From the NCBI GenBank assembly GCA_903832205.1, contig CAILAH010000037.1, positions 1 through 33,705 on the forward strand: 33,705 nt of DNA. The letters are read 5' to 3'. Source of the DNA: an uncultured Microcaldota archaeon (GTDB lineage Archaea > Micrarchaeota > Micrarchaeia > CAILAH01). Each line of letters opens with the position of its first letter. Within the stretch, counting starts at the first letter, position 1. A program made the position numbers and the translations under genes. Under the pieces are notes generated by a model, which was not told the origin of the DNA, ran no database searches, and saw nothing but the letters and a program-made list of their open reading frames with translations. Shown piece after piece: positions 4,257 to 32,815 of the stretch.

Positions 4257-4405
4257 GATTCGCTTGGGTTTAGATACTAATAAATAGTTTTCCAATTTGA
4301 ATGATACGATAAGTTCCAACCAGCCTTCAGAAAGTTTATTCTTCTGTTGGAAGGAGTTGGGCCTTATGCGGTTGTAGTCTAGCCTGGTAGGACATGGCCT
4401 TGCCA

Positions 4406-4455
4406 AGAGCTTTTTCTTTCCGAAAAAACTCGGAAAAAGAAAATTCTACGCAAGG
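4406..4455 (+). other. tRNA-Gly intron 1 (anticodon loop, 37/38)
   Basis: This 50-base intron follows A37. GCAA at 4450-4453 pairs with TTGC of the anticodon loop (4400-4403) as the 4-bp central helix of a bulge-helix-bulge, the substrate of the archaeal splicing endonuclease. The body is a long A/T-rich hairpin (about 4410-4422 pairing with 4431-4443). Confidence 0.85.
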
Positions 4456-4476
4456 AGGCTAAAACCCGGGTTCAAA

Positions 4477-4525
4477 GCACCTCTTTTGGGATGCCTAAAG
4501 AGCTGCACCAGAAAGGTGATGAAAA
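4477..4525 (+). other. tRNA-Gly intron 2 (T-loop, 59/60)
   Basis: This 49-base intron lies inside the T-loop. It contains a hairpin with arms GCACCTCTTT and AAAGAGCTGC (one C/C mismatch) around the loop TGGGATGCCT. The junctions form a near-canonical bulge-helix-bulge with central helix TTCA/TGAA and cuts AA|G and AA|T. Its first 39 bases match the T-loop intron of tRNA-Trp in this window at 36 positions. Confidence 0.85.
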
Positions 4526-4528
4526 TCC

Positions 4529-4558
4529 CGGCGACCGCATACTTTTTTTCTAAAATTT
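4529..4558. repeat. 30-base direct repeat, copy 1 (tRNA-Gly 3' end)
   Basis: The exact same 30 bases recur at 4732-4761, offset by 203. This copy contains the last bases of the T stem, the 3' acceptor strand, the discriminator and the T-run of the tRNA-Gly gene. The bases on each side of the two copies differ, so the repeat is bounded at 30. It has the position of an attL- or target-duplication-like site at a tRNA 3' end. Confidence 0.9.
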
Positions 4559-4731
4559 AATCGCTAATGAGGGGGAGGTGTAGACCACACGACATGCATT
4601 CGGCAGTGAGCCGAATGATGCATCATCTTCGCACGGCGAAGATGCATGGGAGGGGGACGCTTCCGCACTTTTGCCTGAGGGCAAAAGGCGGCATTGTCTG
4701 CCAAAGCAGACATGTGCCCCCTCATCAGTGA
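4559..4731. mobile_element. 173-base hairpin-rich insert between direct repeats
   Basis: No coding capacity is visible. The outer arms ATGAGGGGG (4567-4575) and CCCCCTCAT (4717-4725) pair and enclose at least four strong hairpins: GCATTCGGC/GCCGAAT near 4596-4615, CATCTTCG/CGAAGATG at 4624-4644, CTTTTGCC/GGCAAAAG near 4669-4688, and TGTCTGC/GCAGACA near 4695-4712. The exact 30-base direct repeats on both sides, one inside tRNA-Gly and one covering the copA stop codon, suggest that the segment was inserted between neighbours that used to touch. It holds no integrase or transposase, so a mobile element would have to be non-autonomous. A structured RNA is an alternative. Confidence 0.55.
4592..4644 (+). 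repeat. Twin-hairpin repeat, copy C
   Basis: The pattern is ACATGCATT, a variable stem-loop, AATGATGCATC, then a second variable hairpin (CATCTTCG..CGAAGATG). It shares its constant segments with the copies at 25125-25172 and 32584-32630, but has different stem sequences that remain complementary. Confidence 0.65.
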
Positions 4732-4761: not shown

Positions 4762-6990
4762 CTTCCTGTAGCCCCTCATGAAAAGTGAGTTTGTCACCAC
4801 TGAGACGGAGCTGAATGCCATTGCCGCTCCGGCAACTACTGGGCTGAGTAGGAAGCCTGTGAACGGGAAGAGAATGCCCATTGCAATTGGGATGCTGATG
4901 GTGTTGTAGGAGAATGCCCAGAAGAGGTTCTGCTTTATTTTTGCAAGCGTATATCTGCTCAGGTTTATTGCCGCGACCAAATCGTTGAGATTGCTCTTCA
5001 CGAGGACCACGCTGCCGCTTTCGATTGCAACATCAGTTCCTGCGCCTATTGCGATACCAATGTCTGCCTGTGCAAGTGCGGGGGCGTCGTTGATGCCGTC
5101 GCCAACGAATGCGACTTTCTTTCCCTGCGCCTGAATTTTCTTCACTTCGTTTGCCTTGTCTTCCGGGAGCACATGGGCGAGGACGCGGTCGATGCCCACC
5201 TGCTTTGCGATTGCATTTGCGGTGCGCTCATTGTCGCCCGTTATCATTACTGTCTCATAGCCCATTTGCCTTAGGTGAGAAATTGCAGATGCGGACGATT
5301 CTTTTACTGTGTCTGCGATTGCAATGAGGCCGAGGAAGGTTTTGCCTGAAGAGACAAGGACGGTTGTCTTGCCCTGGTGCTCGAGCGAATGCATCTGCTC
5401 AAGCGCTTCATTTGGCATTTTAATCTTCTCCCTGAGCAGGAGCGCCTTGTTGCCGACGAGAATGCGCTTGCCTGAAACAGTTGCGGAAATGCCGTGGCCG
5501 GGAATTGCCTTGAATGAAGCGGGTTTATGCAGTGGCAGATGATGTGCCTTGTTGACGATTGCCTGGCCCAGGAAATGCTCGGAGCTTTTTTCTGCAGAAG
5601 CAGCGAGCTGGAGAAGTGATTTCTCGCTTCCTGAGTAGGCGATTATGTCCGTGACTGTTGGTTCGCCTTTGGTTAATGTGCCTGTCTTGTCGAATATAAT
5701 TGTGTTTGCCTTGTGGAGCTGCTCGAGCGCCGCCGCATCTTTGAAGAGGATGCCGAATTCCGCGCCCTTGCCGGTGCCGAGCATTATCGCCGTGGGGGTT
5801 GCGAGCCCCATGGCACAGGGGCAGGCAATGATGAGTGTCGAGACTAGAATTGTAAGAGAAAAGAGGAATGGCTGCTGCGCGATGAAGAACCAGTAGGAGA
5901 ATGCGAGAAGCGAAAGGGTAATTACGGCCTGCACGAAATAGCCGGAGACAGTATCCGCGAGGCGCTGGATTGGCGCCTTGCTTCCCTGCGCCTCCTCAAC
6001 GAGACGGATTATCTGCGCGAGCATTGTGTCACTGCCCACGCGAGTTGTCCTGAACCTGAAAGAGCCAATCTTGTTTATGGTTGCGCCGATTACGTGTGCG
6101 CCTTTCTTCTTGTGCACCGGAACGCTCTCACCCGTAATCATGCTTTCATCAACAGTGCTTTCGCCTTCTGTTACCGTCCCGTCCACGGGGATTTTCTCAC
6201 CCGGGCGGACGATTATGATGTCGCCAACAATAACGTCATTAATGGGGACCTGCATTTCCTTTCCGCCGCGCACAACAAGCGCGGTCTTTGGCTGAAGGCC
6301 TATGAGGCGCCTTATTGCCTCTGAGGTTTTTCCTTTTGCGACCGCCTCCAAATATTTGCCCAGAAGGATAAACGTGAGCAGGAGCGTTGCTGTTTCGTAA
6401 TAGAGCATTCCGGGAATTACTGCAAAACTCACGAGAAGGCTGTAAACATAGGCGGTGCCAACGCCCAGGGCCACGAGCGAGTCCATGCCCGGCATCATGC
6501 GTACCAGGCCACGGATTCCCTTTATGAACACCACGCGGTTTACGTAAAGTATGGGTGTTGCGAGAATGAACTGGACTACTGCCATGTTATTTACAAGAAA
6601 GTCGGGATAGGCAATCGGCAATGCGAGCATCTCCGGAAGTGAAAGGAGCAAAATTGGAATTGTCAGTAAGGCGGAGAAGATGAGGCGTGAGCGAAGGCCG
6701 GTGATTTCTCTTTCGCGCGCTTCCTTTTCCCTGTCTGCGGCTTCGGGTTGGACTGAGGGCTTTCCTTTTTCATCAAGCTGTGTGAAATCCACGCCGTAGC
6801 CTATTGATTCTATCGCATTCTTGAGCTGCGGAAGTCCTGCGGTGGAATCATCAAACTCAACCGTAGCAGAATTGCCTGCCAGATTTACGTTTGCGGACTT
6901 GACGCCGTTTACCTTCTTAAGGCTGCGCTCAATGTTAAGCGCGCAGGAGGCGCAATCCATTCCTGAAACTGGAAATCTTATTTTTTTCAT
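4753..6990 (-). CDS. copA: Cu+-transporting P1B-type ATPase
   Basis: CopA exports Cu+ from the cytoplasm at the expense of ATP. The 745-residue protein starts with one HMA domain whose metal site is GMDCASC (Cys13, Cys16). The membrane core follows, with the actuator motif TGES (about 286-289), the transmembrane metal site CPC (about 390-392), the phosphorylation motif DKTGT (Asp about 434), and [14 protein letters not shown] in the P domain. The last helices carry the YN pair (FSYNTIS) and MAFSS, the Cu+-specific P1B-1 signature. All catalytic residues are intact. I chose the ATG at 6990 because GGTGA lies 8 bases upstream and the HMA begins directly; a GTG at 7002, right after the upstream stop, would add four residues. 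It is in an operon with the DsbA-like gene. Its stop codon lies in the 30-base repeat. Confidence 0.95.
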
Positions 6991-32410: not shown

Positions 32411-32488
32411 AACAACACCAATGGTGTTATGGTGAGAATAAGATATATGCTAGATTACTTGTGAAAAGAAAGGATGGGGCCACGAGGA

Positions 32489-32533
32489 TTTATTCTTTCT
32501 GGTGCCGCTCTTTAGGCATCCCAAAAGAGCGGC
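32489..32533 (-). other. tRNA-Trp intron 2 (T-loop, 59/60)
   Basis: The 45-base intron forms a perfect 10-bp hairpin, GCCGCTCTTT with AAAGAGCGGC, around the same TGGGATGCCT loop as the tRNA-Gly T-loop intron. Relative to Gly, stem position 3 and its partner change together (A-T to C-G). The 3' junction lacks the Gly TGAA, so its bulge-helix-bulge is relaxed. Confidence 0.8.
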
Positions 32534-32554
32534 TTTGAACCCCGATATGCTGGT

Positions 32555-32758
32555 TTCTCAATACAACACGGCAAATTTATGCCACAAGCATTCGCCGAGG
32601 CGAATGATGCGCCCTTTGCAGGTGCAAAGGAACGTGTTGACAAGCTCCAGTTTATGCAATCATCGAACTCCGAGGAGTTCTCATTAAACTAGATCCCTTT
32701 TCCCGTAAAGGGAAGGCAGGGTTGCGAAGGGCGGAAACCGTAGGTGTCTGCCCTTCGA
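32555..32758 (-). other. tRNA-Trp intron 1 (anticodon loop, 204 bases)
   Basis: This large intron has several perfect hairpins: CGAAGGGC/GCCCTTCG next to the 5' junction, GAACTCC/GGAGTTC, CCTTTGCA/TGCAAAGG and CATTCGCC/GGCGAATG. The last two form twin-hairpin repeat copy A. ACTGGAGC (minus strand of 32644-32651) is complementary to GCTCCAGT spanning the anticodon and 5' junction. GAG before the 3' junction pairs with CTC of the loop, giving a short bulge-helix-bulge. Confidence 0.8.
32584..32630 (+). repeat. Twin-hairpin repeat, copy A (inside tRNA-Trp intron)
   Basis: In plus orientation the order is ACAAGCATT, stem-loop CGCC-GA-GGCG, AATGATGCGCC, then CCTTTGCA-GG-TGCAAAGG. The constant parts are identical to copy B at 25125, with unrelated but self-complementary stems. 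Confidence 0.65.
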
Positions 32759-32815
32759 CTGGAGCCAGCCGTGTTGCCAGGTTGCACCATGGCCCCATCT
32801 GGGAAACTTGGGCTG

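Follow-up and report, generated by a model that had tools for sequence, protein, structure and literature searches.

A small structured core shared by tRNA and rRNA introns of Micrarchaeota

Two interrupted tRNA genes

The window, that is, the whole 33,705-nucleotide stretch of DNA analysed here, is contig C37 of genome G000, an incomplete MAG (1.11 Mb, 82% complete). It carries a tRNA-Gly(GCC) and a tRNA-Trp(CCA) gene, each with two introns. The features discussed below are as follows.

4368..4539, plus strand: tRNA-Gly(GCC) gene with two introns; exons 4368-4405, 4456-4476 and 4526-4539
4406..4455, plus strand: tRNA-Gly 37/38 intron, 50 nt
4477..4525, plus strand: tRNA-Gly T-loop (59/60) intron, 49 nt
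4477..4514, plus strand: putative mobile core in the tRNA-Gly T-loop intron
4477-4486, 4487-4496 and 4497-4506, plus strand: 5' arm, apical loop and 3' arm of this core
4507-4509 and 4510-4514, plus strand: linker ACC and purine tail AGAAA of this core, the tail being the mirror of 5'-arm TCTTT
4515..4525, plus strand: 3' end of the tRNA-Gly T-loop intron, GGTGATGAAAA, target-specific, closing the bulge-helix-bulge with TTCA
32475..32796, minus strand: tRNA-Trp(CCA) gene with two introns; exons 32759-32796, 32534-32554 and 32475-32488
32555..32758, minus strand: tRNA-Trp 37/38 intron, 204 nt, with no copy of the core
32489..32533, minus strand: tRNA-Trp T-loop (59/60) intron, 45 nt
32496..32533, minus strand: putative mobile core in the tRNA-Trp T-loop intron
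32489..32495, minus strand: 3' end of the tRNA-Trp T-loop intron, GAATAAA

The coordinates of both genes and of the 59/60 site agree to the base with those in a preliminary description of this DNA. The same holds for the identity of 36 of the first 39 bases of the two T-loop introns and for the compensatory difference in the stem, where pair 3-28 is A-T in tRNA-Gly and C-G in tRNA-Trp. The other difference between the two cores is the change of a C.C mismatch to a G-C pair. A 22-mer common to both introns had two matches in the window and none in 100 dinucleotide shuffles. The tRNA-Gly 37/38 intron contains what appears by eye to be a diverged relative of the core, in which TTTTTCTTT (4411-4419) is mirrored by AAAAAGAAA (from 4434).

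Splicing would leave a tRNA of 73 nt in each case, as described before, but the statement that all the arms form was not reproduced by the minimum-energy fold, which alone gave a full cloverleaf for neither; the arms of both can be drawn by hand, those of tRNA-Trp with one D-stem mismatch. The bulge-helix-bulge described for the tRNA-Gly T-loop intron, with the central helix TTCA/TGAA, was found by eye, and has 3-nt bulges plus one additional unpaired base. The tRNA-Trp T-loop intron has, also by eye, a relaxed motif consisting of TTC/GAA only, which the preliminary description did not mention. Because of their introns, none of the tRNAs of the window was detected by ARAGORN and Rfam at the gathering score. 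Because the 82% complete assembly yielded no intact second tRNA-Gly(GCC) or tRNA-Trp gene, the two genes of the window are most likely working genes, and not the pseudogenes that intact copies elsewhere would have made of them. No homing-endonuclease ORF is present in the 45-49 nt introns of the window, which are too short to hold one.

Copies of the core and the introns around them

When the whole genome was searched with the 22-mer, the core was found in at least seven places and not just in the two tRNA genes noticed earlier. Four copies are in T-loops (Gly(GCC), Trp, Val(GAC) and Glu(TTC)), two in anticodon loops (Val(TAC) and Leu(TAA)) and one in the 16S rRNA gene (C44:5986-6007), within a GTGGCG...GGC stretch that by eye seems to correspond to the archaeal 16S intron locus 722 (PMC4496867). 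All four T-loop cores begin at the same base, after TTCAAA, TTCAAT or TTCGAA, and there is no difference over 38 nt among those of Gly, Val(GAC) and Glu. In the 16S gene of a Candidatus Micrarchaeum MAG (G003, locus L099) the same hairpin is present twice, once at this site and once elsewhere in the gene, and the intron junction has a GTGG/CCAC helix of the bulge-helix-bulge type (by eye). The 16S contig of the window genome (L008, G000:C44) is chimeric near 6060-6306; the intron is complete (...CCATAAAAGGC) and is followed by an ORF that by eye is similar to the C-terminal end of bacterial MazG, although it had no Pfam match. On the reverse complement of L099, at approximately 1480-1970, an intron of the Micrarchaeum 16S gene contains an ORF in which a stretch resembling LAGLIDADG, AAFVAGIFDAAGKV, was recognised by eye; Pfam gave no match.

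Orthologous sites were compared among relatives. The Trp T-loop site is intron-free in G002, the Gly T-loop site in G004 and the Glu T-loop site in G001, which belongs to the same genus as the window genome; the copies are thus recent enough for an empty site to be found within the genus. In G003 and G004 the Trp T-loop intron terminates in GAATAAA, as does the one studied here, but its interior is unrelated. Likewise, the Gly T-loop intron of G003 has the same TGATGAAAA end and a different interior, the last 9 bases of the 3' end at 4515-4525 being common to the two orthologues. Since pairing with TTCA does not force the sequence GAATAAA (the other introns use TGAAAA), common descent is the simplest reading of the GAATAAA ends found in Trp introns across genera. 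Because the orthologues keep the splice ends but have other interiors, the present core most likely entered Trp and Gly introns that already existed. Judged from these comparisons, the mobile unit is the 38-nt core hairpin colonising introns, not the whole intron, and the copied unit is sharply delimited here as a core between conserved splice ends. The earlier proposal of spread by copying between unrelated tRNA genes is upheld, but T-loop sequence is not the sole target, as copies are also present in anticodon loops and in 16S.

Structure and covariation of the core

The element is 31-38 nt long and comprises a 10-bp hairpin whose 5' arm is pyrimidine and whose 3' arm is purine, a 3-nt linker (ACC, ATC or GCC) and a purine tail, which repeats the stem in mirror order. 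The fourth stem pair is often a C.C mismatch. The apical loop YGGGWTGCCT is retained while the stems vary. In alignment A5 the stem positions were paired in 95.9% of the cells, compared with at most 62% in slid controls, and double-sided changes were found in 201 cells, compared with 56 in shuffles. A G-U pair was found in 1 of 1198 stem cells. Near-absence of G-U is unusual in an RNA helix, and we think that this scarcity suggests a constraint at the DNA level, acting on a folded DNA strand; it could partly come from the model's own preference.

The tail covaries with the stem. Of the 24 cases with C in the 5' arm, 22 have a G opposite in the tail, compared with 1 of the 281 cases with T; in 10,000 permutations the number of C/G matches averaged 3.95 and never exceeded 10 (observed, 22). 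The arm types TTTTT, TCTTT, TTTCT and TTCTT are each matched by their own tails, AAAAA, AGAAA, AAAGA and AAGAA, respectively. There are also longer exact mirrors between stem and tail, of 8-12 nt, e.g. TCTTTTCTTTTG with AGAAAAGAAAAC; for these long tails the direct-copy control is weakly informative, AAAAGAAAA being almost its own mirror. Because template copying cannot produce a mirror-order repeat, selection for three touching strands is the simplest explanation of the tail. The covariation itself is evidence of constraint, not of a triplex, and it provides a concrete three-strand structure that is open to testing. For the short types the tail was excluded as an antiparallel partner of the 5' arm, since CTCTTT contains no segment whose reverse complement is AGAAA. 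Inspection by eye gave no support across the loops for an 11-nt tetraloop receptor, a k-turn or an H-type pseudoknot.

Distribution, possible mobility and known systems

A pattern describing the looped form matched 14 stretches among 85,000 species, all in Candidatus Micrarchaeota, and two patterns of the element gave no match in viral contigs. With covariance model R1 the element was found in 32 of the 98 genomes searched, the window's own included. The looser model R2 gave matches in 111 of 301 genomes, among which single weak matches are unreliable; those in families f4 and f8 were discarded because the R2 matches in G248 proved to be in-frame pilin codons, i.e. chance. In relatives the element occurs in T-, D- and anticodon-loop introns, in 23S and 16S introns, in an RNase P RNA gene and in intergenic DNA. 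It forms tandem arrays (L089, L093, L126) and nested copies (L175-L178), and it is found at exact tRNA gene ends (L166, L167, L180, L183), 3' of stop codons (L170, L171, L174) and, in one tRNA intron, in antisense orientation (L169). In G057 the loops of the intergenic relatives are different ones, and the same fold may be put to a separate use there. In L094 (449-486; G069:C78) the core is within an archaeal RNase P RNA gene, adjoining the conserved ACAGAAAC block, and may be an intron or a replaced P12 stem. In G145 (L179-L184) the exact 3' end of several tRNA genes is followed by TCCGCTTTTTAGGAAAAAGCGGAACCAAAAA and a conserved stretch of about 100 nt.

The window genome encodes a full-length EndA homologue of 390 aa (E=1e-120 to ARMAN-2 EndA, 4fz2/9w2k), which keeps Tyr160-Lys161 of the ARMAN-specific loop. 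By this similarity the splicing endonuclease of this genome is assigned to the relaxed-specificity epsilon2 ARMAN type. RtcB is encoded as well. A second EndA-like protein (L034, G000:C3:18942-19175; 161 aa) was below the Pfam cut-off and has no obvious active-site Tyr/His.

No mobility protein for the element was found among the candidates considered, Y1 transposase and reverse transcriptase. A Y1 transposase was present in 4 of 23 element-rich and 4 of 16 other genomes, all of these being incomplete MAGs, and none was found in the incomplete MAGs G000-G004, G057, G084 and G300. Reverse transcriptase is missing from most element-rich genomes. At L292 (G000:C26:45301-45948) a likely diversity-generating retroelement is made up of a reverse transcriptase, an RT-16 RNA and a target-like protein whose C-terminus matches; a protein similar to this target-like protein is located after EndA (L032). 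Target-site duplications are not general: among 110 loci there was one clear case, L117, apart from tandem arrays.

We consider it probable that the core is a small structured Micrarchaeota repeat that has been copied between places and has settled mostly inside tRNA and rRNA bulge-helix-bulge introns. Copying, invasion of existing introns and covariation are the parts of this interpretation that the sequence comparisons demonstrate. In the proposed mechanism the hairpin and the mirror tail would fold together, the tail forming a third strand alongside the stem, and the folded form would count as a DNA strand rather than as RNA. A host or a foreign protein would recognise the fold and move the element. 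The inserts would be tolerated if, as predicted, the epsilon2 ARMAN-type endonuclease and RtcB remove the enclosing intron; introns would be safe landing sites because splicing takes the element out. The further-reaching interpretation is possible but a good deal more tentative: a new tiny Micrarchaeota mobile element, in the form of a folded DNA strand with its tail as third strand, that colonises introns of essential RNA genes, whose interiors turn over while the splice ends persist. Recognition of the fold as DNA would make it a minimal mobile element of a new type, and recognition as RNA would make it a triple-strand motif new among natural ones.

Near-identical introns in unrelated tRNAs and empty sites in relatives could also have arisen by transposition of complete introns together with their splice sites, as in Thermoproteales, with T-loops as the target. 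This was the form of copying proposed in the preliminary description, and we regard it as improbable: the 3' ends stay with the target and match orthologues of other genera that have different interiors, the core and the splice ends of the Trp and Gly introns travel separately, and there are copies in anticodon loops, 16S, 23S and intergenic DNA. Alternatively, the hairpin and tail might be a functional RNA part of introns, involved in splicing, folding or stability, and their similarity might reflect selection for a shared function more than recent copying. The strong covariation within the stem and between stem and tail, the constancy of the apical loop among changing stems and the mainly sense orientation in introns are what such a function would predict. 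We nevertheless consider it unlikely, since orthologous introns of sister genera do without the core, Gly, Val and Glu are identical over its 38 nt, G-U makes up a single pair cell, and there are antisense copies and copies outside introns.

Gene conversion through similar T-arms, spreading one intron interior over four T-loops with no mobile element involved, would fit the common start of the four T-loop cores and their similar T-arm flanks, and several of the T-loop copies could have arisen in this way. As an account of the whole it is very unlikely, as the anticodon-loop, 16S and other copies lie between unrelated sequences and relatives in other families carry the element in many contexts. 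Some contigs end or join at the repeat (G000 C44, G003 C49, G084 C2 and C5), as might be expected of an assembly artefact, but the absence of matches in shuffles, the presence of the element in independent MAGs from different studies and the intact tRNA exons on both sides make an artefact or chance similarity extremely improbable. The copied and structured repeat settling mostly in introns is our preferred interpretation.

In Thermoproteales, tRNA introns have been transposed between tRNAs (Sugahara 2008; Fujishima 2010, reviewed in PMC4033280 and PMC4090602). According to the same reviews, position 59/60 is a listed intron site, and multiple and non-canonical introns, which the preliminary description placed mainly in Thermoproteales, are also present in ARMAN-1 and ARMAN-2. 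The Micrarchaeota introns resemble those of Thermoproteales in having near-identical sequences in unrelated tRNAs, at canonical and other positions, and in the relaxed specificity of the endonuclease. They differ in phylum, in that the core alone is shared while the splice ends stay with the target, in the occurrence of the element in rRNA, RNase P RNA and intergenic DNA, and in the mirror covariation of stem and tail. Archaeal 16S genes contain short hairpin-forming introns of <50 nt (PMC4496867), which are likewise small hairpins with no ORF; here, unlike there, the sequence is common to tRNA introns. ARMAN-2 (Ca. Micrarchaeum) has an epsilon2 splicing endonuclease and non-canonical introns (PMC12397907), and the window genome encodes a full-length homologue of this enzyme with the ARMAN-specific loop; the parts of that account available to us mention no shared or mobile intron sequence.

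No homing endonuclease was found in the copies of the element examined here. Eukaryotic introners are mobile elements that generate spliceosomal introns. As with introners, splicing masks the insertion of a repeat, but archaeal introns are spliced by proteins and the element settles inside introns, having no splice sites of its own. REP repeats and elements of the IS200/IS605 type are moved by Y1 transposases. The Micrarchaeota element may, as a guess, share with them the small hairpin acting as a folded single DNA strand, whereas its distribution is not tracked by Y1 transposase. In the open literature searched we found no description of a small mobile element of this kind. Within that literature the Micrarchaeota family, the separation of the core from the splice ends, the sharing among tRNA, rRNA and other loci and the mirror covariation of stem and tail appear to be new; parts of this may stand in Fujishima 2010/2011.

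Other repeats were observed near tRNA introns. The repeat GTGTAGACCACACGA, in a G-rich context, occurs in the window at 4578-4592 (plus strand) and at L010, L012, L015, L025, L026, L027 and L031; in several tRNA genes of the window genome it comes immediately after introns or, in antisense orientation, within them. A second intron repeat, a GAAGGGG...CCCCTTC hairpin followed by GCAACCC, is recurrent in tRNA introns of the family (L279, L281, L282, L286; 32555-32758 in the window). At L124, L128, L122 and L281 duplicated 5' fragments of the same tRNA are present upstream of or around the inserts, with a parallel in the tRNA-Thr fragment of Caldiarchaeum (PMC3293823).
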